In this document: positions 5,557-33,994 of the stretch, in pieces
Position numbering within the stretch: the first letter of the stretch is position 1
Layout of the letters: each line of letters starts with the position of its first letter
DNA from: Halobacteriovorax sp.
GTDB lineage: Bacteria; Bdellovibrionota; Bacteriovoracia; Bacteriovoracales; Bacteriovoracaceae
Reading direction: 5' to 3'
Assembly: GCA_024686135.1 (NCBI GenBank)
Contig: JAIBDQ010000018.1
Span: forward strand, 1-35,297
DNA: 35,297 bases
Made by a program: the position numbers and the translations under genes
The notes under the pieces: model-generated
Database searches by the model: none
The model's input: the letters and a program-made list of their open reading frames with translations, nothing else
What the model was told of the DNA's origin: nothing

Positions 5557-6369
5557 CTATATTTCCCTTCTATTAAAAAGCATATAGAAAAAAGTAAAAA
5601 ACAAAATCAACGTGACGAAGTAATGTCCTAATTCCATAGGAATATTTAAGACCGTATCATCAACTTTCAAAAGAATATTTCTACCGATATCATCAATATT
5701 TCCTATTCTAGGAAAGATTGCATGAAAGCCTAAACCGATTCCCTTGAAAATATTCATTTCCTCAGTCATCGCACTCCAATCCTTTCCTTTAAAATAGCCA
5801 TTACTTGCCGTGACTAAAATAGAGCAAAAGGAGGTCATCATAAAGGCCATAATCTTCGGCATATAAAGCCCCATAAATGAAGCTACTAATATAATGACTA
5901 AATTACTTAGGGCCGAGAAAAACATGGCCCCTAAAAGGTGAGGTCCACCAATCAAACTTCCAACAGAAGTGCTTAAAAGAATCTGAGCAATGATAACCGA
6001 AACAAAGTAATAGATAATTACGATAAACCAACTTCCAAGGACTCTAGATAAGATATACTCCATCCTTGAAACAGGAAAGGAAAGCATCAAAGGGGCTACA
6101 TTATTTTCGATATCAGACTTTATACAGTTTACTCCAAACACAATGGCGAGCAATGAAGTAAATTTACTAATAATAAAGATGAGAGCTTGAGCGGACCCTT
6201 GCGCAGCTCCTTCAGCTCCCATTTGACTTAGGAACTCTGTAGAGATGTAGCTCAACAAAGAATTAATAAGAAAGATGATCACAACCGTAAAAATAGAAAC
6301 TAACAAAAGTGTTTTTGATCTAAATTCTTTTTGAAGGGTATTTAGCAAGAGAAGTTGAAATTTTCTCAT
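5557..6369 (-). CDS. ABC transporter permease (NosY/ABC-2 type)
   Basis: Six-TM pattern with SDIENNVAPLMLSFPVSRMEYILSR typical of ABC-2/NosY permeases. ATGA overlap with the upstream ATPase. Confidence 0.75.
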   Translation of the reverse strand: MRKFQLLLLNTLQKEFRSKTLLLVSIFTVVIIFLINSLLSYISTEFLSQMGAEGAAQGSAQALIFIISKFTSLLAIVFGVNCIKSDIENNVAPLMLSFPVSRMEYILSRVLGSWFIVIIYYFVSVIIAQILLSTSVGSLIGGPHLLGAMFFSALSNLVIILVASFMGLYMPKIMAFMMTSFCSILVTASNGYFKGKDWSAMTEEMNIFKGIGLGFHAIFPRIGNIDDIGRNILLKVDDTVLNIPMELGHYFVTLILFFTFFYMLFNRREI

Positions 6370-7079
6370 TTTTCATCTCCTTTAACTAAGTCGTAAAATG
6401 CATCTTCGAGAGACTTACTTCCCTTCACCTCACTTAGACTTCCTTGCACTAAACAGTCTCCCTTATTTAAAATAGCAACTTGATCACAGATCTGCTCCAT
6501 TTCACTAAGAATATGTGAGTTGATAAAAATAGTTTTTCCCTGGTTTTTCAATCTATTAATTAGTTCTTTTAGTTCTTTAATCCCAATGGGATCTAAACCT
6601 GAAAAGGGCTCATCTAGAATTAAGATTTTATTCTCCCCCATTAAGAGGTTCGCCAAACCTGTCCTTTGAACTTGTCCTTTAGATAAGCTATCCATTCGTT
6701 TACTACGAAGTTCAGTTATATTGAGAGCATCTAAAGCGGTGACAATAGCTTCATTAAGAATTGCCCCATTCAGGCCTTGCATTTTGCCATAGAATGAAAG
6801 TACTGACTCAACTGTATAATATGAAAAAAAGTTAAATTTCTCGGGAAGATAAGCAAGCCCTTGTCTGGCATTTTTATCTCTAACATCCAGGCCTTGGAGT
6901 TTGATATCTCCACCGCAATTTGTCAGTCCGAGTAAGGCACGAACAAAAGTTGTTTTCCCTGCTCCGTTCGGACCTAAAAGAGCAAAAGCAGAGCCCTCCT
7001 CCACCGATAAGCTAAGACTTTTAAGGGCAGCTAAACTGCCATAATTTTTAGAAACGTTTTGGGCTTGAATAATTTGCAT
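6366..7079 (-). CDS. ABC transporter ATP-binding protein (NosF-like)
   Basis: Walker A GPNGAGKTT, signature LSKGQVQR, Walker B ILILDEPFSGLDP. Confidence 0.9.
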   Translation of the reverse strand: MQIIQAQNVSKNYGSLAALKSLSLSVEEGSAFALLGPNGAGKTTFVRALLGLTNCGGDIKLQGLDVRDKNARQGLAYLPEKFNFFSYYTVESVLSFYGKMQGLNGAILNEAIVTALDALNITELRSKRMDSLSKGQVQRTGLANLLMGENKILILDEPFSGLDPIGIKELKELINRLKNQGKTIFINSHILSEMEQICDQVAILNKGDCLVQGSLSEVKGSKSLEDAFYDLVKGDEK

Positions 7080-7095
7080 GTTGGTATTTTAGGCC

Positions 7096-9621
7096 CTAGC
7101 GGGCTTCCTGTAAAAGAATGGCCGGTTTAACTCTCATAACTTTTCTAACCGCCAGTTCCGCAACAAAGACTCCAAAGCCGGTTAAGGATATCCACGTCAC
7201 AAAAGGCGTTAATACTGGGGGTCTCCATAGTCCATCGAAAAAGAAGTAACTAAGCAGATACCCGACGAGATAGCTCAACAAGACACCAAGCAAAGTACCG
7301 CCTCCCGTCAATAATAGGATTGAATAAAGCTGAATCCTTCTTAGATCAGCAAAAGAGAAACCTAGAGTTTTTAAAAGTGCCCAGTCTTTCTTTCTAGCAT
7401 TAGCTTGATGACCCACTAATGCACTTACGACAAAAAAGCCAACCAATACAGAAAGAAGGCTCATTCCTTGCAGGGCTCCCTTCATTTGATTTAAAAGAAC
7501 TAAGATTCTTTTTATCAATCTTGAAACATCAACTGAACTAATATTGGGAAAGAGATTATACAGAGAGAACATCACTTCATCTCGGTTCTTTCCACTTAAG
7601 GCCCCTATTACACCCAAATATGTTTTTGGGGCATCGTCCAAGACTCCAGGCTGGAACACAATAAAGAAATTTGGCATAAACGTGGTCCACTGAACACTTC
7701 GGATAGAAGTAACTCTCCCCTCAACTGGCATACCTAGAACTTCAAAACTTAACTTATCACCGATTTCTATGCCTAATCTTTTGGCATACCGCTTTTCAAT
7801 ACTAATCTCCGGCACTCCATTGCCATCAAACTTAGAGCTAAAGTATTTCCCCTCAATAATTTTTTCACCAGTCCCAAGTTCATTTCTAAAAGTTAAATTG
7901 ACTCCCCTGTTCCTAAAACGCCTTTCTCTTTGCTCTTCTCTAGTAAGACCCCTTTCTAAAGAGACCTCAATCCTCTTTCCATTAATTTCTAAGAGCCTCG
8001 CCCTAATCATGGGCGTTATCGCCTTTAATGGTGTCTGTTCTTTTTTCAATTTTTGCACGAGAGGTTGTACCTGTTCCTCTTGGATATCGAATAAAAATAG
8101 ACTTGGAAGTTTTCCGTCCTCAGGGCGTTCGACCTCTTGGAGAAGAGAGCTCTCTAAATTAGGAATCAAAGTCAATAGCAATGAGCCTAACACTAGGCTT
8201 AAAAAGATGGTAACACTAGAGGTTTTAAATCTTTTAAAATCTCTAAAAATAAATCTTAGAGAAAAACTTAAATCACGTTTAGAGACCCAAGTTACAAACC
8301 AAATAAATACTGGAAAAATGATGGCGCTAATGCCTAAGAAGATTGCTGAAAAAATCAATCCGACTCGAATACTGTTACTTACATAAATAGATAGAAAACA
8401 AAAATAAATACACCATGGAGTAAATAAAAGAAGGTCCCTAAGACTTAAACTAAGGTTTTCTACACCTAGACCATGAAATGGATTTCCTGCTTTTTGAGTA
8501 ACTCTTTGAATGATTAAAGGAATGCCGATAAATAAGCATCCCCCCACTCCCACAAAGAAGCCGAGGATAACCGCTCTGGGGTCTAAAAGATAAGACAGTT
8601 TTAAAGGAACAGCGTCACCTAGAAAGCCTAAGATCAAAGGTGTTAGGCCAAAGACGATAAAGACGGCTATTAGGCTTCCCATAAAGCCTAAAATTAATAA
8701 ATGCATACTATATAATTTAAAAATTGAGGCTTTTCCTAACCCAAGGGAATGTAGAGTGGCAAAGCTATATTTCTGTTCACTTAAATAGCTACGGTATAAA
8801 TAAAAAGCGCCAACGGTTGCGAGAAACAACGCCACTAAACTTACTAGCCCCAAGAAGTCATTAAGGTAGTTCACCACTCGCCCAACATTTTCGCTTGCAT
8901 TCGTGGGTGTTTTAACTCTCTTAGAGTTATCATTTATTATTTCGGTAAACTTTCCCTTTAACTCTTTTAATTCATTTTTAGTTTTATCGACTTTAAAATA
9001 ATAGCCGTATCGAACACTTGAGCCTTTTTGAACAAGGTTGGCAGAATCTAAATCTTTCAGATTGACAATAATCTTCGGTGCCATGGCCCCCATTTGAAAT
9101 GTCTGTCCATGATCTTTGGCTATGACGTCTGCCACTTTGTATTTGGTCGCGCCAATTCCAATTTCATCACCAACTTCTATACCTAATTGAATCTTAAGCT
9201 CTGGATAGATCCAAACCTCGTTCTTACCTAGCTTTATGTTCTGGGGATACTTCCCTCCATTTTCTAGTTCTAGTCCTCCGTAAAATGGAAAACCCTCCTC
9301 TAAACCGGAAAACCAAACGAGTCGTGTATTCTTTTTATGGCTTGCCATGGTAAACATGCCAACATTCATTTTGAATTCAGACTTTTCTCCTAACTCTTTT
9401 CTAACGAGATCAATTTTTTCATTTGGAACAGCCCCTCTTCCCGTAATGGCAAGGTCTGCTCCTAAGATTTTTTTGGCCCTTCCCTCAAGAACCTGGTCAA
9501 AGCTAACTCGAAAATGTTGCATTAACATCAGCCCGCATAAACCAAAGGCGATATTCAATAGAAATATTGTTGTGAACTTTCTTCTATTACTGAATTCTCT
9601 AAAGGCCAATTTTAAAAGCAC
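7096..9621 (-). CDS. ybbP: ABC transporter permease, FtsX/YbbP family
   Basis: About 840 aa, N-terminal LAFREFSNRRKFTTIFLLNIAFG, two FtsX-like blocks, directly downstream of a YbbA-like ATPase and TesA-like hydrolase. Confidence 0.85.
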   Translation of the reverse strand: MLLKLAFREFSNRRKFTTIFLLNIAFGLCGLMLMQHFRVSFDQVLEGRAKKILGADLAITGRGAVPNEKIDLVRKELGEKSEFKMNVGMFTMASHKKNTRLVWFSGLEEGFPFYGGLELENGGKYPQNIKLGKNEVWIYPELKIQLGIEVGDEIGIGATKYKVADVIAKDHGQTFQMGAMAPKIIVNLKDLDSANLVQKGSSVRYGYYFKVDKTKNELKELKGKFTEIINDNSKRVKTPTNASENVGRVVNYLNDFLGLVSLVALFLATVGAFYLYRSYLSEQKYSFATLHSLGLGKASIFKLYSMHLLILGFMGSLIAVFIVFGLTPLILGFLGDAVPLKLSYLLDPRAVILGFFVGVGGCLFIGIPLIIQRVTQKAGNPFHGLGVENLSLSLRDLLLFTPWCIYFCFLSIYVSNSIRVGLIFSAIFLGISAIIFPVFIWFVTWVSKRDLSFSLRFIFRDFKRFKTSSVTIFLSLVLGSLLLTLIPNLESSLLQEVERPEDGKLPSLFLFDIQEEQVQPLVQKLKKEQTPLKAITPMIRARLLEINGKRIEVSLERGLTREEQRERRFRNRGVNLTFRNELGTGEKIIEGKYFSSKFDGNGVPEISIEKRYAKRLGIEIGDKLSFEVLGMPVEGRVTSIRSVQWTTFMPNFFIVFQPGVLDDAPKTYLGVIGALSGKNRDEVMFSLYNLFPNISSVDVSRLIKRILVLLNQMKGALQGMSLLSVLVGFFVVSALVGHQANARKKDWALLKTLGFSFADLRRIQLYSILLLTGGGTLLGVLLSYLVGYLLSYFFFDGLWRPPVLTPFVTWISLTGFGVFVAELAVRKVMRVKPAILLQEAR

Positions 9622-10287
9622 TTATACCTCTTCGAGTTTTCCGCCAACAAGCTTAACGGTTCTTTCACATTCTTTGGCCAACTCTTTATTATGTGTGACA
9701 AGAATTAAGGTGCTTCCTTCTTCTTTTACTAGACCAAAGATCAGATTCATCACTTTGTTGCCTGTACCTTCATCTAAGCTTCCACTAGGCTCATCGGCTA
9801 AAATAATATCTGGACCAATGGCCAAGGCCCTAGCGATAGCAATTCTTTGTTTTTCGCCTCCACTAAGCTGATCAGGAAAATGATCCTTTCGATCAAGTAG
9901 TCCTACTTTCTCAATCCATTTTAAAGCTTCTTCTTTAGCATTATCTTTTTTTAATATCTCTAGTGATAAAGCTATGTTCTCGAGGGCATTTAAATGGGGC
10001 AGTAAGTGAAAGTTTTGAAAAATGATGCCTATTTTTTGCGCTCTTAAGTTAGTTAGATCTTTTTCTTCAAGGCTAGATAGCTCAACACCATCTAACTTAA
10101 TATTCCCGCCTTCAGGTTGATCTAAACCACTTAGTAGAGATAGCAAGGTTGATTTACCAGATCCACTTTGACCTAGGATGGCCAGAGTCTTTCCTTTTTC
10201 TACCTTAAGGTTAAGATCCTTAATGACCTCTATTTTTTTGGGACCCTGTAGGTATGATTTACTTAGAGAGTTAACATCGAGAATCAT
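9622..10287 (-). CDS. ybbA: ABC transporter ATP-binding protein (YbbA/LolD-like)
   Basis: Walker A GQSGSGKST, signature LSGGEKQRIAIARAL, Walker B IILADEPSGSLD. Confidence 0.9.
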   Translation of the reverse strand: MILDVNSLSKSYLQGPKKIEVIKDLNLKVEKGKTLAILGQSGSGKSTLLSLLSGLDQPEGGNIKLDGVELSSLEEKDLTNLRAQKIGIIFQNFHLLPHLNALENIALSLEILKKDNAKEEALKWIEKVGLLDRKDHFPDQLSGGEKQRIAIARALAIGPDIILADEPSGSLDEGTGNKVMNLIFGLVKEEGSTLILVTHNKELAKECERTVKLVGGKLEEV

Positions 10288-10880
10288 AAAAGTGGCTCCA
10301 AGGTCTTCAAGACAGTCTCAGCTATTAGCTCATGACCTTTTTCGTTGGGGTGAATGCCATCATTTTGATTATATTCGGCCTCTCCCCCCACACCTTTTAA
10401 TAAAAAAGGAATCCTATAAATAGTGAGTTCTTTCTCCAATTTTTTAAACATGTCTTCAAATTCAGTACGATACTTCTCTCCGTAATTTACTGGTAAAAGC
10501 ATTCCTGCCAAGATGACTTTAATTTTTTTAGATTTAGCTAACTTAATTATTTCTCTAAGGTTTTTTTCGGATTCCTGTAACTTTATTCCTCTTAGACCAT
10601 CATTGGCACCGAGAGCTAGTAATAAAAAGTCCGGCTTAGCCTTTAGGAACCAGCGCAGCCTACTAATACCAGAAGCGGTTGTAGAACCACTAACGCTTCC
10701 ATTAAGGATTTTTACTTTCTTACCTTTTTTATTTAATTTATCTGAAACCAAGCTAGGGTAAGACTTCTCTTTAGGGACTCCATAACCTTCAGTTAATGAG
10801 TCACCTACAAAAAGAATCGTTGTTTGAGCGTAACTTCCAAGGCAAATAAATAAGCTAAGTATTCCAATCCAGATTTTCAT
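10284..10880 (-). CDS. tesA: Arylesterase / SGNH-GDSL hydrolase (TesA-like)
   Basis: Signal peptide, block I GDSLTEGYGV, block III GANDGL, block V DGIHPNEKGH. Confidence 0.9.
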   Translation of the reverse strand: MKIWIGILSLFICLGSYAQTTILFVGDSLTEGYGVPKEKSYPSLVSDKLNKKGKKVKILNGSVSGSTTASGISRLRWFLKAKPDFLLLALGANDGLRGIKLQESEKNLREIIKLAKSKKIKVILAGMLLPVNYGEKYRTEFEDMFKKLEKELTIYRIPFLLKGVGGEAEYNQNDGIHPNEKGHELIAETVLKTLEPLL

Positions 10881-10896
10881 CTGCCGATTATAGCCT

Positions 10897-12849
10897 TTAT
10901 TTTGCTAATTTGGCAGGGTGAAAGCGTCTTGTTTTGGTTAAGAATAAGTCAATTTTATGCCTTTTTTCGGCATATTTAATCTCGCGGTAGAGAACCAGGA
11001 TTTCCGAGCACTCTCTAAAACTGCCCCAGGACAATGGTAGGCGCTTCTCTAGACTCAATGCTCCCTCAGTCTCACCACGGACAATTCCTACCTTTGTTAG
11101 TTTCTTCAAGAAGTTCGCATAAGCTTTGTCTACAGGATCGACCTCACCCTTTAAACTATTTCTCCAAAAGTAAAAGAATCCGAGTAAAAATAGAATACAT
11201 ATGCTCATTAAAATAGCACGAGAGTATCTTCTGAGATTTGATAAATTAAAAAGCTCTCTTTGCGCTCTAGAGTCATACTCTAAAAACCTTTGGTTTAATT
11301 GATTATATAAAGAATCAAAAAAGAAAAAGGCTTTAGTTAAAAAGGCATTTTTTCTATTTCCTATAAAGTCCTTCAACTGCATGCCCTCTGGCATTTGTGA
11401 CCTTAAAAGAAAACCTTCTGAGCCAAAACTTATTCTCTCTGGGGCCACCACATTTGTAGGGTCCCCTCTTCTCCACATCTTTCCATTCCAGAATTCAAGC
11501 CATGCATGGGCATCTTGCCCTCTTACCTGGAAATATTCTCCCGTTGGGTTATAAAGTCCACCATGAAAGCCAATAACGATTCGACTAGGTATTTGATTTG
11601 CCCTAAGAAAGATCGCCGCAGCAGAAGAGAAATGTTCGCAAAAACCTCTTTTATTACTAAAAATAAAACTTTCTAAATTCTGCACCCCTGGTTTTAAAGT
11701 ATAAGTAAATTTTTGGGCCCTAAAGAACTCGAGAATATTCTGATATGTCTCGTCAGGATTTCCTCTACCTAAAGTCTTAGCAAAGCTAATAACTCTTTCA
11801 GACACTCCGGGATCCAGCTCTAAGTATTTGTACTTATCTTTAGGAATAATTCTTTCACTTTCAACTCCTGAATACTCAGCCGAGTACCTTCCCTTATGAT
11901 TTGCATAGGGATGAAAATAGGTGATTCCACCTGGGTCAGAAATTCTATGACCGGGAGAAGTTTGTTTAAAACGTCTTGTGCCTTTAAGGTGAAATAATGG
12001 AGAGCTCTCCAAAGTAGACATATTTATGGTGTATTCAAAAAGTATTTCTTTTTTCGTCGTGAAGTCCTTAGCTCGCCTAATATCTCCCTTATCCCATGAG
12101 AACCCACTATTCTTAGAGAGCACTCCACCTCTCCAGTATAGGTTTGGAAAAGCGATAGCATCTTCAGGTATTTTGGCCCTAAAGTATGTGCTATCATCCT
12201 GAACGACTTTGGCTATCTCACCGGGTCTAAGAGATGAAGTAAAACCAGTAACACCTGCGGGTTTCTTTTTTAAGCTAAAAAGATTACCGATTGGCAATCG
12301 AGGGAAAACAAAAAATAAGAAAATTGTTAATGGCACTGAATAGTAGAAAACCTTTATGATTAGTTTTTTTCGTTCTCCATTGCCCTGTGCTTCTATGGAG
12401 TTTTCAACTTTATAAAATCTTGCCAAAAGAAAAAAGAGGAAAAGAGAGATTAAAAAGATATAGCCACCAAACCAAAGTGAAAATTCATCAAGAAGCTGCC
12501 CTAAAAATAGCAGCTCGCAAATAAAGACAAATAGTGTAAAGTCTTTCTTCGAATTAATCCTTACACTTTGAACAAGAGCGATGAGCGTCAATAAAGAAAC
12601 CGCTGCCTCAAGCCCTTGGAAGGTTCCATACTGATAAAAAATAAGGCCAAAGGAAAGAATCGAAAATATACCTAATAAATACTTTCCATATTTTACTAAG
12701 TGATCACCAAGGCTCCAGCTCAAAAGAAAACCAATAACCGATGCTATCTGTATGATCAGTGGTTTTACCGTGAAAGAGGGGGCCATAATAAAAAGAAAAA
12801 GTAAAAGGCTACTTCTTCTCATTCCTAGGTTTGAGATAATTCTATTCAT
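10897..12849 (-). CDS. Transglutaminase-like membrane protein (TgpA/DUF3488 type)
   Basis: Multi-TM N-terminus. Triad motifs KRGFCEHFSSAAAIFLR, GQDAHAWLEFW and GDPTN. C-terminal TM and DUF4129-like tail. Confidence 0.88.
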   Translation of the reverse strand: MNRIISNLGMRRSSLLLFLFIMAPSFTVKPLIIQIASVIGFLLSWSLGDHLVKYGKYLLGIFSILSFGLIFYQYGTFQGLEAAVSLLTLIALVQSVRINSKKDFTLFVFICELLFLGQLLDEFSLWFGGYIFLISLFLFFLLARFYKVENSIEAQGNGERKKLIIKVFYYSVPLTIFLFFVFPRLPIGNLFSLKKKPAGVTGFTSSLRPGEIAKVVQDDSTYFRAKIPEDAIAFPNLYWRGGVLSKNSGFSWDKGDIRRAKDFTTKKEILFEYTINMSTLESSPLFHLKGTRRFKQTSPGHRISDPGGITYFHPYANHKGRYSAEYSGVESERIIPKDKYKYLELDPGVSERVISFAKTLGRGNPDETYQNILEFFRAQKFTYTLKPGVQNLESFIFSNKRGFCEHFSSAAAIFLRANQIPSRIVIGFHGGLYNPTGEYFQVRGQDAHAWLEFWNGKMWRRGDPTNVVAPERISFGSEGFLLRSQMPEGMQLKDFIGNRKNAFLTKAFFFFDSLYNQLNQRFLEYDSRAQRELFNLSNLRRYSRAILMSICILFLLGFFYFWRNSLKGEVDPVDKAYANFLKKLTKVGIVRGETEGALSLEKRLPLSWGSFRECSEILVLYREIKYAEKRHKIDLFLTKTRRFHPAKLAK

Positions 12850-13775
12850 CTCTTCTCCCCTTTTGAGGAGATGGCCTTAAGACAAGATAAAAGCTGATTT
12901 CTTCCAGAACCAAGTCCTATCGTTCGCCCATTTACGTTCAATGAATATCTAGCTCCCATTTCTTCCGCACGAAGTACCCATCCCGTTAATATGCCGAGAA
13001 CCTCTTTTCGGTTTCCTAAGACTGTGGACTCATCAAACTTAAAACTCGTGCCAATATTAGAATCAAAATCTTTTACGTACAGCTGATCTCGTTTGGCATA
13101 CAACTTCCAATCGATTCTTTGGAGACTTTCATTATTATATTTTCGATGCTCAAGGAACTCTTCTTTTTGTAAAGAGCTTCTTAGTATGCCCTTTTCACTA
13201 CTAGAATTTATACTACCTGGTAATGGCATTTCAACGGGTTTAGGAATAACTAAGTAATCTGAGGAACACTTAAAAGGCTTCCAGCTTTTAAAGATCCCAA
13301 AAGGAAAGCTGGTATTTAAATTTCCTCTTTCAATTTCATAGAGCCCTACTTCTTTATGGGGCAATATAAGGCCTAGCTCACAGCTTTGACCTGGCAATAC
13401 TTCAGCAACATAACTAGAACTTGAATTAAAGATACTAACTTCTATATCGTAGCGGCTTTTTGTCCCTGAGTTTTTAACTCCAACAAAGGCCATTGCTTCC
13501 TCTTCTTCAAAATAGTAATCAGCGAGTTTTAAACGAAAGAAATCTATACCGTATAGGTTAAAATTCGTTATATGGCAGCTCACAAAAATAACTGAGAAGA
13601 ATAAAAAACTGCACAGATAAGCTAAAGAATTTGCATAAGAGAGAGAAATAATAAAAAGAATAAAAATTAAGAGACTAAAGTAGCCTCCACTTCCTGTTAG
13701 AAAGATATACACCTTTCCGTTAGAGGTCGCTGCTTCAACCCTCGCGACGATCTTTTCCTTAACTGAATTTAACAT
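12846..13775 (-). CDS. DUF58 domain-containing protein
   Basis: Two N-terminal TMs. EFLEHRKYNNESLQRIDWKLYAKRDQLYVKDFD matches the DUF58 core (R.Y..gD....IdWk..Ar...l.vk). Lies between MoxR and transglutaminase genes. Confidence 0.88.
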   Translation of the reverse strand: MLNSVKEKIVARVEAATSNGKVYIFLTGSGGYFSLLIFILFIISLSYANSLAYLCSFLFFSVIFVSCHITNFNLYGIDFFRLKLADYYFEEEEAMAFVGVKNSGTKSRYDIEVSIFNSSSSYVAEVLPGQSCELGLILPHKEVGLYEIERGNLNTSFPFGIFKSWKPFKCSSDYLVIPKPVEMPLPGSINSSSEKGILRSSLQKEEFLEHRKYNNESLQRIDWKLYAKRDQLYVKDFDSNIGTSFKFDESTVLGNRKEVLGILTGWVLRAEEMGARYSLNVNGRTIGLGSGRNQLLSCLKAISSKGEKR

Positions 13776-14670
13776 GAGTTAGGATACCCTTTACGAGTTC
13801 GGATCCATATTTTACGCCTCTATGTCCACCAAGGCGATGGCCCCAGACGTAAGGTGAAACAGTTTGTATATCCTCAGGTAAAACATGATCTCTTCCCTGA
13901 AGAAAGGCATAACCTCTGGCGACAAATAATAAATCCCTACCTGCTCTTGAAGACAAAAAACCTTCATCTGTTTCAGAACGTGCATATTCTAATAAATCGA
14001 GAGCGTAATCAGCAATAGCATCACTAATTTTAACGTTAAGAACTTCTTCTTGATATCCTTCAAACTCCATTTGGTTTAAAACCGGATCCAAGTTTAAAAA
14101 GCTTCTATCTCTATCTGGAAGAAGAAGTATCTTTTTCTCGATCTCTCTTGAAGGCAGATCGAGGTAAAGGGCCATTCTAAAGCGATCTAATTGCGATTCC
14201 GGCAATAGATGTGTTCCAATTTGATCGAATGGGTTCTGGGTGGCCACTAAAATAAAAGGTTTTGGTAATTCAATAGTTCCATGCTCATGGCTGACACTAC
14301 CTTCCTCCATGGCCTGAAGTAAGGCACTTTGAGTTTTGGGTGTGGCCCTATTTAATTCATCAGCGAGGACAAACTTATTGATTAGAGGACCTTCTTTAAA
14401 TTTAAAATCAGAAGTTTCTTTAACGAAGATATTAGTCCCAATGATATCAGCTGGAAGTAAGTCATTGGTACACTGAATCCTAGAAGTCTCAAATCCAATA
14501 AGTCTTGCTAAGGCCTGGACCAAAGTCGTTTTACCAACACCAGGAACATCTTCAATTAAAAGATGTCCTTTACTAAGCAAGCAGGCCAGAGAGAGCTTGA
14601 TTTCAAGCTCTTTACCTAAAACGACTTCAGATAAAATAGATTCTATTTGTTCTAATTTTTTAATATTCAT
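13759..14670 (-). CDS. MoxR-family AAA+ ATPase
   Basis: Walker A EDVPGVGKTTL, Walker B VLADELNRATPKTQSALLQAMEEG, ATQNPFDQIGTHLLPESQLDRF. Start at 14670 (MNIKKLEQ, preceded by GAGGCAG) is preferred over the 14727 ATG, which lacks an SD. Confidence 0.88.
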   Translation of the reverse strand: MNIKKLEQIESILSEVVLGKELEIKLSLACLLSKGHLLIEDVPGVGKTTLVQALARLIGFETSRIQCTNDLLPADIIGTNIFVKETSDFKFKEGPLINKFVLADELNRATPKTQSALLQAMEEGSVSHEHGTIELPKPFILVATQNPFDQIGTHLLPESQLDRFRMALYLDLPSREIEKKILLLPDRDRSFLNLDPVLNQMEFEGYQEEVLNVKISDAIADYALDLLEYARSETDEGFLSSRAGRDLLFVARGYAFLQGRDHVLPEDIQTVSPYVWGHRLGGHRGVKYGSELVKGILTHVKFS

Positions 14671-14777
14671 CTGCCTCAAGTTTAAGGCTTCCACTTGGCC
14701 CTTACCAGCAACAAAACCTGTCACCATAGATGTAAGTTACTGATTTCACATAAGGAAAATTAGGCCTTTACCGGCTT

Positions 14778-29480: not shown

Positions 29481-32400
29481 ATGTCAGCTCACCACAATGA
29501 CGACGAAAACAAAGACGACGGTTCCGTTTGGACCTCCTATTCTGACTTATTCACAACTGTCGCCGTCATCTTTCTTGTTATGTTTGTCTTTGCCCTCCTC
29601 AGATCTGGAATAAATACGGCTAAGGCCCTGCGAGAAAAACAGGCACAAAAAGAAATCCTTGAAGGAAAGATTCCTGAAAAACTTGCTCTAGATAATCAAA
29701 AAAAGAAAGACACCTTAGATAAATCTATAAAAGAAATGGATAGTTTTAATGAAGTCATTGATCAAAAAATGATGGAAATTAATACTTTCCAAGAAAAAAT
29801 GAAAAAGCACCAAAATGTGATGGTGGATCTTCTTAAAGACCAAGAAATTAAAGAAACGGTTATGGCCGAACTTCGAAAGGAATTGGATCAAAAAGAAGTG
29901 GATATGGTTAAAACGACTCAAAAAATTGATGACCTCAATAAAACTATAGAACAAAAAATAGCCGCCTTGAGTGAGAATAAAAAAGAAACTATCGCTCTAG
30001 AGAAAAGGAAAATTGAGTTAAAAAAACAGATCGTCGACTGGGAACAAAAAGTTGTTGAAATAGAAGAACAACATGAAGAGAAAATCATTAAGAAGAATGA
30101 AGATATAAAAAGCCTGCAATTAGAGGTTTTAAATAAAGACCAATCCAACGACCAGCTAGAACAAAAAATAACTAACTTGAAAAAGGTAGAAATAGAGAAA
30201 GTTGAAATCATTAAAAGTCTTGAGAACAATGTCGAGGGTCTAAATAAAGATTTACTAACAAAGAAAGAAGAATTGAAAGGCCTTGAAAGTAATTTAATTG
30301 AAACTAAAAAAACCGTTAAGATTAAGTCTGCCAATATTGAAAATCTACAAAAGAAGCTCACAAACGAATTAGAAATAAATCAACAACTTGATAATAAAGT
30401 AGTCGACCTCTCTAAAGATCTTCGACAGACTCAAAAAGAAGTTAAACTGGCTAAGTCTGAAATTGCTCAGAACAAGAATCAAATACAGGAAAAAATTAAG
30501 AAGATCCAAGAATTAAAGCAAAATGTTGCTGATCAAAATCTTGTCAATCAAGATTTAAATAAAAATATTGAAAAGCTTGATCAGACTGTGACTAAAGCCA
30601 AAAACCAAATCAAGGCCCTTGAAAATCAAGTTAGTAATAAAGATCAAAGAATCACAAACTTAGATAAGGAATTAACCAATCTACAAAAAACTTATGATCA
30701 ATCAGTTATTGATAATCAAAAACTTAATAAAAAGTCAGAGAATCTAACTGCACAACTGGCCTTAACCACTGAACAGCTTCAATTAGAACAACTAGATAAA
30801 GCCAATATTGAAGTAGACTATAAGGCTGCCGTAAAGAAAGCCGAAGAGATGCATAAAAACATAGAGAACATGAGACAAAATGTAGATGGTTTACACAAAC
30901 AAATCACGGCTAAAGAAAACATCGTTAAAGATCTCGAAGTTCGTCTAGCTTCTTCAAAAGCCAAAAACTTTAAAAGTAATAACAAAAATACGGCACTCAA
31001 TAGTAAGGTTACGAGTCTAGAGACCCAAATTAATAAATTAAATAGTGAACTTAAAAATGAAAAAGAAAATAAAAATAAGGTTAATCAAGACTTAGCAAAC
31101 CTAGAACAAAATTATTCAAGAAATGAGAACAAAAGAAAAGAACTGAAGTCCGTTATTAATGGCCTTAATCGTCAGATAACAAATCTACAATCAGATATAA
31201 ATTCTAAAGATAGTAAGAACAAAGGACTTAATAACGAAGTAGCCAAGTTAATGAAGCAACTTGATGGGCAAATGAGTAATAACGGAAAACTAAGTCAGAA
31301 TATCGATTCTCTTAAAAAGCAAGTAAATGAACTAAACAGTTCACTTGGGCAAAGAGCGGCAAATCAAAAAACTCTTGAACAAAGGGTCGCCACACTTAAG
31401 AATGGCATTCTTAGAAGAGATGGAAACAATCAAGAGTTAAGTAAGAATATTGAGGATCTAGAAAATAAAGTTGCCGGACTCAATTCAGACCTTCAAAAGA
31501 AGGGCCAAACTGTAAAAGGGCTAGAGTCACTTTTAAAAGATTTACAGAGTAAATACGCCTCAGCCCAGAATGAATGGAGTAAAACTAAAAATCAGGGTAA
31601 CCAAAAAGATAATCTTATCTCGCAGCTAAAAAACCGAATCGCTACAATGAACAACCAGATCTCGAAGAATGGTCAGGTAAGCATGGGGATTAAAGAAAGG
31701 TTTGATCGCATGGCCAATGATTACTCTAAGGCACTAAACAGAAGTAAAGGGCAGGAGGAAGAGCTAAGAAAGCTAAATAATAAGGTTCGTGAACTCTATG
31801 CCCAAATGGAAACAGATAAATTTCAAGAGATTGAACCAAACAAACTAGAAGAAGAAAATACGATGCTAGCTCAGCAAAATGCCGTTCTTAAGAAGTTACT
31901 CGAAAGAAGAGAAAAGGAAGCTACCAATAAGGCAAAAGATGAAGGAAGAAAGATAGCTAGTGTTCAAAACTCACTACGGGCTCATATTGGAAAGAAAATC
32001 GCAGATAGAATGAAAGCTGCCAACTTAGATGTTTTTGTGGATCCTAACACTGGAGCCGTAATCCTAAGAATGGATAATAGCTTTTTGTTCAAGAGAAACT
32101 CGGCGGACTTATCTAATGGACTTAAAAAGACCTTAAAAAATGTCATCCCCCTTTATGTTGATGAATTGTTTAAAGATGCTGGAGTGGCAAACAAGATCAA
32201 TCACGTTAATATTATTGGTCACGCCTCCCCTAGACATAGACAAAAATACGTAGACCCGCTTGGCAAGAATATTAGGGCCTATAATTTCAACTTAGATTTA
32301 AGTTCAGACCGCGCAAGAAGTATTGTGAAATACATTTTTGGCCGTCAATTCGGAACTTTTGAATATGCACCTCAATTTAGGCAAAAAGTACAGGCCATAG

Positions 32401-32549
32401 GAAAAAGTTTTTCAGATCCTGTCCTAAGAAAACCTGGGTCAATAAAGAAGCCCAGTAATGACTGCGGAAAGTATGATTGTAAGCTAAGCCGCCGAGTAGA
32501 GATCAGTTTTACGCTTAAAGATAATAAAGACGTTTGGGAAAATAAATAA
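29481..32549 (+). CDS. MotB/ZorB-like single-TM protein with giant coiled coil and C-terminal OmpA-like peptidoglycan-binding domain
   Basis: N-terminal GSVWTSYSDLFTTVAVIFLVMFVFALL (MotB-type TM with Asp22); about 790 aa of charged heptad-like sequence; C-terminal VNIIGHASP...NLDLSSDRARSIVKYIF (NxxLSxxRA) and RRVEISF. Confidence 0.85.
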   Translation: MSAHHNDDENKDDGSVWTSYSDLFTTVAVIFLVMFVFALLRSGINTAKALREKQAQKEILEGKIPEKLALDNQKKKDTLDKSIKEMDSFNEVIDQKMMEINTFQEKMKKHQNVMVDLLKDQEIKETVMAELRKELDQKEVDMVKTTQKIDDLNKTIEQKIAALSENKKETIALEKRKIELKKQIVDWEQKVVEIEEQHEEKIIKKNEDIKSLQLEVLNKDQSNDQLEQKITNLKKVEIEKVEIIKSLENNVEGLNKDLLTKKEELKGLESNLIETKKTVKIKSANIENLQKKLTNELEINQQLDNKVVDLSKDLRQTQKEVKLAKSEIAQNKNQIQEKIKKIQELKQNVADQNLVNQDLNKNIEKLDQTVTKAKNQIKALENQVSNKDQRITNLDKELTNLQKTYDQSVIDNQKLNKKSENLTAQLALTTEQLQLEQLDKANIEVDYKAAVKKAEEMHKNIENMRQNVDGLHKQITAKENIVKDLEVRLASSKAKNFKSNNKNTALNSKVTSLETQINKLNSELKNEKENKNKVNQDLANLEQNYSRNENKRKELKSVINGLNRQITNLQSDINSKDSKNKGLNNEVAKLMKQLDGQMSNNGKLSQNIDSLKKQVNELNSSLGQRAANQKTLEQRVATLKNGILRRDGNNQELSKNIEDLENKVAGLNSDLQKKGQTVKGLESLLKDLQSKYASAQNEWSKTKNQGNQKDNLISQLKNRIATMNNQISKNGQVSMGIKERFDRMANDYSKALNRSKGQEEELRKLNNKVRELYAQMETDKFQEIEPNKLEEENTMLAQQNAVLKKLLERREKEATNKAKDEGRKIASVQNSLRAHIGKKIADRMKAANLDVFVDPNTGAVILRMDNSFLFKRNSADLSNGLKKTLKNVIPLYVDELFKDAGVANKINHVNIIGHASPRHRQKYVDPLGKNIRAYNFNLDLSSDRARSIVKYIFGRQFGTFEYAPQFRQKVQAIGKSFSDPVLRKPGSIKKPSNDCGKYDCKLSRRVEISFTLKDNKDVWENK

Positions 32550-32567
32550 CTCGTAAGGGAGTAAGTT

Positions 32568-33506
32568 GTGATACTTAACATGGTTTTTGACTTTTTTAGT
32601 AACTACCTAATTGAATTCATGGGTTCAATGCTTGTCATCGGTCTTGGATTCAGATGGGCCAGTTGGCATGCGAGTAAAAGGGAAGATGCCTATTTTACAG
32701 GTTTTACCTCTGAAATAGAAAAGACTATCCTACTTCAAAAAGATGTCACCCATGAACAAGTCGAAGATGTGGATAAGTATCTAGTAGAACTCCTAGAAAC
32801 GGTCAGTGAAAAGCTCCCCACTCGTAGCCTTAGAAATAAAAAGCAATCAAAGAGCAACCAGGAAACCGCCGAAAAAATGGGGGCTCAAAATGTTGTTTCC
32901 CTAAGAGAGTATGTAAAAGGGGATCAAAGCTTATTCCTTGGGATAAAAAATGAAAGTGCTTCTTTTAAGTCTAAGTTCCCACCAAATTTTAATGAGCTAA
33001 CAGATCGAATTCTGGAAAAAGATGACAACTGGAATAAGCTATTAAACTTTTTTCCAATAGGTCCGATTTCAAGGTTGATCGATATCCTACCAGGACTTTT
33101 TGTTGTCTTCGGAATCTTCGGTACTTTTATCGGAATCTCAATGGCGCTTCCAAAAATTGCAGAGATGGATTTTAATAATCTTGAAGCTTCAGGTGAAATA
33201 CTGACTCAGTTCGTACTAAGTGTAACTTATGCCATGAAAACAAGTATTGCTGGTATTCTCTTTTCAGTGATTATGACTCTTCTAAATACGATCGCTCCAG
33301 TAACTGGTATGAGAAATAGAACTTATAAAAAGATTTCAAATTGTTTTGAAAATATCTGGCATTCAATTCATGGTGAAAAGTCTATTGAGGAAGAAATGCA
33401 CGAAGTCCTTCCTGCTCTTTTAGAGGAAGTTAAGGCGCTTAGAAAAGCGGCTGAAGATAAAAATGAATCAGATGAGGAGAAACTTGAGCATAAGGAAGGA
33501 GCTTAA
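32568..33506 (+). CDS. MotA/TolQ/ExbB-type (ZorA-like) proton-channel family protein
   Basis: SRLIDILPGLFVVFGIFGTFIGISMALPKI...FVLSVTYAMKTSIAGILFSVIMTLLNTI. GTG start 32568 or ATG 32580. 18 bp after the MotB-like gene. Confidence 0.85.
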   Translation: MILNMVFDFFSNYLIEFMGSMLVIGLGFRWASWHASKREDAYFTGFTSEIEKTILLQKDVTHEQVEDVDKYLVELLETVSEKLPTRSLRNKKQSKSNQETAEKMGAQNVVSLREYVKGDQSLFLGIKNESASFKSKFPPNFNELTDRILEKDDNWNKLLNFFPIGPISRLIDILPGLFVVFGIFGTFIGISMALPKIAEMDFNNLEASGEILTQFVLSVTYAMKTSIAGILFSVIMTLLNTIAPVTGMRNRTYKKISNCFENIWHSIHGEKSIEEEMHEVLPALLEEVKALRKAAEDKNESDEEKLEHKEGA

Positions 33507-33508
33507 TC

Positions 33509-33994
33509 ATGAGCGCCATCGCAAACCTAGTTAAAGGTTGTCCCCTTTTTCATGAGATCTACGATAATGAAGTCGAAAAGATTTTGGCAGACTGTCTCGT
33601 GGCGACCTATCAGCCAGGTGACATCATCATGAAACAAGGCGAAGAAGGCACGGATATTTGTGTTATCTTAAGCGGCTATGCAAATATTTCAGTCCTAAAA
33701 GGTGAGGAAGAACATTTTATTGCGACCATTGGTCAGGGTGATATCTTTGGCGAAATGGTTTTAATTAATGAGACAAAAAGAACTGCCAATATTGTTTGCA
33801 AAGAAAAGTGCGACGTCCTTGTTTTGAGCTTTGAAAACTTTTATAAGTTTTTTAGCAAGAACCCCTCAGTCTTTGCCCTTATGGTTTTAAATGTAACGAG
33901 ACTAATTACCAAAAGACTTAAAAATTCTAATCTTGTTGTCCAAGAACTGAATCATAAAATCATTGAGCTAGAAGGAAAAAACAAGGCAGCATAA
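33509..33994 (+). CDS. Stand-alone cyclic nucleotide-binding domain protein
   Basis: CNB fold: YQPGDIIMKQGEEGTDICVILSGYANI...IGQGDIFGEMVLINETKRTANIVC. No C-terminal HTH. Starts 2 nt after the MotA-like stop. Confidence 0.88.
   Translation: MSAIANLVKGCPLFHEIYDNEVEKILADCLVATYQPGDIIMKQGEEGTDICVILSGYANISVLKGEEEHFIATIGQGDIFGEMVLINETKRTANIVCKEKCDVLVLSFENFYKFFSKNPSVFALMVLNVTRLITKRLKNSNLVVQELNHKIIELEGKNKAA

Follow-up and report, generated by a model that had tools for sequence, protein, structure and literature searches.

Introduction

Ion-driven complexes of 5:2 stoichiometry are known from flagella, the Tol and Ton systems, gliding, type 9 secretion and Zorya. Solved examples of the last include type II ZorAB of S. 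kujiense (8VVI) and type I ZorAB of Shewanella (8VVN), and in type II ZorB the residues H141 and S143 are required for peptidoglycan binding (PMC11890865). In the Agl-Glt system AglRQS is combined with GltG, which bears an FHA domain; Bdellovibrio has clusters related to this system (PMC3169522). In 2025 MotAB relatives were surveyed in a study that described non-flagellar B subunits as lacking OmpA homology, set ZorAB apart and mentioned very large periplasmic domains, without detail (PMC12505986). In the open-licence literature we found no description of a family that carries an OmpA-like domain and a rod and is linked to a cyclic-nucleotide-binding (CNB) or FHA protein, nor a characterised ortholog with a mundane function. 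This agrees with a preliminary description of the locus presented here, which had held its architecture to be undescribed.

Results and Discussion

The window, that is, the whole stretch of 35,297 nucleotides analysed, is contig 40 of a draft Halobacteriovorax genome that is 81.6% complete. On its + strand lie three intact ORFs, gene A (29481..32549; 1022 aa), gene B (32568..33506; 312 aa) and gene C (33509..33994; 161 aa). Gaps of only 18 bp (A-B) and 2 bp (B-C) separate them, as reported at the outset, and A is preceded by a ribosome-binding site (AGGAGA) rated as good. A is MotB/ZorB-like, with one transmembrane (TM) helix, a long heptad coil and an OmpA-like C-terminal domain; B is a channel subunit of ZorA/TolQ type; and C consists of a lone CNB domain. 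The genes flanking A-B loci are mostly housekeeping genes and are common only to the closest relatives. Elsewhere in the window, on the - strand (10284-14727), genes for a MoxR-type AAA protein, a TgpA-type transglutaminase and a GDSL lipase adjoin ABC/FtsX transporter genes (5557-10287), an arrangement that looks ordinary.

The sole hydrophobic segment of A comprises residues 22-40. At its start stands Asp22, part of the motif WTSYSDLF (residues 17-24), and motif and helix together cover residues ~16-40 (29526..29600, + strand). An alignment of 18 homologues shows W17, Y20, S21, D22 and F24 to be invariant, and the Asp is kept in 57/57 full-length A proteins, in the context YS/AD. The proposed MotB-type helix with a conserved Asp is thus borne out, and loss of this residue among orthologues, which the preliminary description had singled out as an adverse sign, was not seen. 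An N-terminal profile of A matches ZorB best (8qyd_F, E 4.8e-6), followed by 8vvi and 8vvn. One homologous locus (L050, 7907-9745) has A split into two ORFs of 412 and 162 aa, which reflects either disruption of the gene or faulty assembly.

At the other end of the protein, residues ~844-1015 (32010..32525, + strand) form the OmpA-like domain. By itself A passes PF00691 narrowly (E 4.9e-6, 27.3 bits against a cut-off of 27.2); the same model matches 21/21 homologues, and the domain assigned in the first reading holds. A C-terminal profile of A finds type II ZorB as its best match (8vvi_A, E 3.9e-11), and the AF2 model of the domain (pLDDT 87) leads Foldseek to the same ZorB, 8vvi (TM 0.70, E 1.2e-9). 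The domain contains the motifs NxxLSxxRA and GHAS. In the profile alignment GHAS falls on the GHTS of type II ZorB, which places it opposite H141 and S143 with the numbering matched via the motif. The H is replaced by F in most A proteins of a sister lineage in which an FHA protein accompanies A and B (see below). Cys995 and Cys1000 are invariant, and their conservation fits a periplasmic disulphide.

Between TM helix and OmpA-like domain lie ~778 residues of heptad coiled coil (residues ~49-825; 29625..31955, + strand). The coil itself had been recognised in the preliminary description, and its length, given there as ~790 aa, is here corrected. The hydrophobic period is exactly 3.500 and stays in phase along residues 49-825; its power is 55, whereas 500 shuffles gave at most 5.5. 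With the coiled-coil rise of 0.1485 nm per residue, this corresponds to a rod of ~115 nm if straight. Moreover, large indels between the coils of close kin leave the heptad register intact (+49 and +49 relative to L037; -7, -7 and -7 between L044 and L118), apart from an additional indel of -17 in the L044/L118 pair; this comparison was judged on close relatives, as more distant pairs align too poorly. Across the family the coils range from ~255 to 1485 residues (~38-220 nm), and they are longer in the CNB lineage than in its sister (median 517 vs 311 residues, P 4e-7, uncorrected for kinship). An origin of the coil length in tandem DNA repeats was also considered and rejected, one short AT-rich run being all that was found.

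A could also be inserted in the reverse orientation, such that coil and OmpA-like domain would be cytoplasmic and the complex a cytoskeletal scaffold. In the CNB clade the charges flanking the TM helix average -1.7 before and +2.0 after it, which is the reverse of the positive-inside pattern of an N-in protein and is an unexplained contrary sign; in addition, the coil is weakly similar to the crescentin rod, probably through a composition effect. However, the homology to ZorB with the same order of motifs, the invariant Cys pair and the peptidoglycan-type residues of the OmpA-like domain all speak for a periplasmic rod, and we regard the reversed orientation as very improbable.

B alone lacks a Pfam match above cut-off. 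PF01618 does not match the window B at all, and 8/23 members reach only E >= 0.003. A profile of the B family yielded confident matches to ZorA chains only (8vvn, 8qyh; E 1e-7 to 2e-3), and the AF2 monomer of B (pLDDT 80) retrieved ZorA at Foldseek ranks 1-4, then ExbB and TolQ. Since the whole-chain match is weak (E 2.4e-3, TM 0.42-0.48), B is assigned to ZorA mainly from the sequence profile. The TolQ/MotA-type core first described in B stands, but ZorAB had been missed as the closest solved relatives. Within the core G182, G185, T186, S226 and G229 are invariant, the polar pair Thr186/Ser226 being unchanged in 23 sequences. Ahead of the core B carries a large domain (residues 30-165) that is, by homology, cytoplasmic. 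Across all loci B measures 291-375 aa and is without the long cytoplasmic tail of ZorA.

By sequence, A is homologous to ZorB and B to ZorA. Both features by which we judged membership of the 5:2 MotAB/ExbBD/ZorAB class, a TM Asp and an adjacent homologous channel subunit, are present. As the preliminary description had proposed, A and B very probably form an ion-driven ring of the MotAB/ZorAB class.

C was originally described as a lone CNB domain with a phosphate-binding cassette, and both parts of this description are supported. PF00027 matches at E 5.6e-20 (71.6 bits against a cut-off of 27.5), the cassette, [FL]GE...R, occurs in 34/34 C sequences, and G81, E82 and R91 are invariant. NCBIfam models place C near CRP, minus the DNA-binding part. 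Class III cyclases were found in 20/20 genomes tested, the source genome included; as they occur with or without C, a source of ligand exists but does not discriminate between these genomes. In one genome (G104, contig C49, 152268-152741) a class III cyclase gene (a frame of ~299 aa) lies ~7 kb from the A-B-C operon. In another (G080, contig C7, 44444-44896) a C-like sequence is interrupted by two stop codons, lies beside no listed B match and is perhaps a decaying copy.

For A and B alike, the best matches in sequence and in fold are the type I and type II ZorAB complexes of Zorya (PDB 8VVN, 8VVI, 8QYD), which share with them the W-x-S-Y-x-D-L TM motif, the OmpA/peptidoglycan domain and polar residues in the B core. 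In contrast to ZorAB, where the long tail is cytoplasmic and sits on the MotA-like subunit, the long coil here sits on the MotB-like A and none is found on B, just as the first reading of the locus had it. Unlike Zorya, moreover, these loci have no ZorC or recognised effector beside them, the third gene being CNB or FHA/coil. Curated models also fall short: NCBIfam antiphage_ZorA_2 scores 34.4 bits on B against a cut-off of 100, and ZorB2 and ZorB1 score 34.9 and 27.2 bits on A against a cut-off of 400. The PADLOC ZorB1 model PDLC00609, for which no curated cut-off is shown, scores 112.7 bits on A. A ZorC model found nothing in 11/12 genomes. The twelfth (G024) has a ZorC-like gene (L158; contig C23, 7237-8937) scoring 175.7 bits against a cut-off of 490, away from its A-B loci on contigs C47 and C39, so that a Zorya-like system may coexist there with two A-B loci. 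We rejected membership of Zorya on the curated scores, the absence of ZorC and the non-defence neighbours.

A looser relation to defence would be an anti-phage system that is Zorya-like or Pycsar-like, with a ZorAB-type trigger and a regulator or effector binding a cyclic mononucleotide (cNMP). Besides the closeness of ZorAB and the PDLC00609 score, the resemblance of C to the CNB part of Pycsar TIR effectors favours this. We nonetheless consider it distinctly improbable: the sole ZorC-like gene stands on another contig, the curated cut-offs are missed, B has no long cytoplasmic tail, and in a scan of genes surrounding the operon in the window neither a cyclase, as a Pycsar system would call for, nor an effector was recognised. 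Neighbours are mostly housekeeping genes, and in the genus of G154, a genome of the sister lineage, the locus is single-copy, with exactly one match in each of 20 genomes.

The locus also resembles MotAB/PomAB flagellar stators in its TM Asp, OmpA domain and adjoining A and B genes. It differs from them in that a coil of 250-1500 residues replaces plug and linker and in that no MotA_ExbB match exceeds the Pfam cut-off. We recognised no flagellar neighbours in the window, and a flagellar stator was rejected on this ground and on the missing PF01618 match of the window B. TolQR, ExbBD and AglRQS share the Foldseek proximity of B to TolQ and ExbB, which follow ZorA, whereas TolR and ExbD have neither an OmpA domain nor a long coil.

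In the gene-neighbourhood survey that had been suggested for the locus, the three-gene unit proved to be conserved within one clade. Here, C adjoins B in 33/33 loci, on the same strand in 32 and convergently in one (L046), and this CNB clade is supported at 100/100, with one label change on the tree. Among 105 genomes of the family a C profile gave 42 strong matches, at least 38 of them beside a listed B match. C is present in 36 of these genomes and the A-B-C set is absent from many, which means that its function is dispensable there. B homologues occur in 181/369 genomes of the phylum. A single scan of genome contigs gave matches in close relatives only, the nearest named record being a Halobacteriovorax sp. 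assembly whose B is 94% identical. Carriage on plasmids was rejected, as 72,556 plasmids yielded no match. The expected synteny thus holds for the CNB clade, but the preliminary description had missed the sister clade, in which another gene replaces C. There, in 27/30 loci, the gene after A and B encodes an FHA protein, typically of 700-1370 aa and rich in long coils, for example in the A-B-FHA operon L088 (G154:C1:1101000-1120000). In two of the other three loci this place is taken by a coil protein in which no FHA match was recognised, and one has neither. The B proteins of the CNB and FHA lineages are only ~25% identical.

The sister lineage invites comparison with Agl-Glt, which likewise combines a motor of MotA/TolQ type with an FHA protein in the same bacterial group. 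By analogy, surface motility or prey attachment might be the role of these loci, as the pairing of AglRQS with FHA-bearing GltG and the related Bdellovibrio clusters would suggest (PMC3169522). The likeness is confined to the sister lineage, however, and the two systems differ in motor subfamily, B being nearest to ZorA. Other glt or agl genes, or any common neighbours, were not recognised beside A-B loci. GltG is a transmembrane FHA/TonB-type protein, whereas the FHA proteins here are mostly coil. We therefore think a role in motility or attachment unlikely.

B and C share one further property, which the preliminary description did not contain. B ends in KEGA (33492..33503, + strand) and C in KNKAA (33980-33991, + strand), and such small-small tails, [AGVS][ASG] of the KKAS/KKAA type, terminate 63/64 B and 29/34 C proteins, as against 0/64 A proteins, 46/766 other genes in the same loci and 0/30 MotA/ExbB paralogues; the rows are related, so that Fisher values for these counts are overstated. 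Against mere kinship stand the low identity of the two B lineages, given above, and the position of the tail on linkers that are not conserved and whose codons are freely chosen. We considered it as a by-product of the C ribosome-binding site or of a terminator and rejected this, because the codons vary and the tail is found also without a close downstream gene and also on C. Probably a single cytoplasmic factor recognises the C-termini of both proteins. This factor is perhaps a ClpX-type protease, a reading made plausible by the tmRNA tags of these organisms, which end in LAA, MAA or similar.

Taken together, we propose that the products of A, B and C make up a single machine of the inner membrane, a peptidoglycan-anchored, ion-driven motor or gated channel under cNMP control, whose function in the envelope would be one of regulated force or tension. 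We give this reading a probability of roughly 55%. Five B subunits would ring two A helices, the 5:2 ratio expected from homology. The path of the ions (H+ or Na+) would lead past Asp22 of A and the polar residues Thr186/Ser226 of B, and their flow would either rotate the ring or open the channel. In the periplasm each A dimer would form a parallel, unbroken coiled coil of ~115 nm; being several times longer than the usual periplasm is wide, such a rod must run alongside the wall or bend. The OmpA-like domain would thus grip peptidoglycan far from the motor. C would have as its ligand a cyclic mononucleotide, supplied by the genomes' own class III cyclases, and would act on the cytoplasmic face of B, but it could act elsewhere than on B, and for cNMP control of the complex we judge the odds to be even. 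In the sister lineage the FHA/coiled-coil protein would stand in for C, perhaps with phospho-threonine control.

The same parts could instead make up a gated ion channel that senses stretch of, or damage to, the wall, in which rod and OmpA-like domain report on peptidoglycan, the ring admits ions and the third protein, be it C or FHA, passes on the state, all without continuous rotation. In the model put forward by the authors of the Zorya study, damage to peptidoglycan enables ZorB to bind and to open the channel (PMC11890865). Both third proteins, CNB and FHA, are signalling domains, but they may equally well be inputs, and the spread of rod lengths from 255 to 1485 residues is hard to fit to a fixed sensing distance. 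We hold a gated channel to be somewhat unlikely. The machine proposed above remains our preferred reading, and its cellular role, which we infer, would lie in regulated force or tension at the envelope of predators and their relatives rather than in phage defence. Any one named envelope role would nevertheless be an improbable choice. More tentatively still, the family may consist of exchangeable control units on a ZorAB-like ring, with a rod of ~38-220 nm as tether to distant peptidoglycan, a cNMP switch in one lineage, a phospho-threonine (FHA) switch in the other and turnover set by the tail of B and C; this more elaborate scheme is possible though doubtful.

Conclusions

A practical consequence concerns defence surveys, in which the PADLOC ZorB1 model PDLC00609 may produce false calls, since it matches a protein outside Zorya. 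For the biology of these bacteria, A-B-C would represent a new layout among ion-driven 5:2 complexes, together with a direct link, at the level of genes, to second-messenger or phospho-signalling, in a family that occurs in a group including bacteria that attack other bacteria.
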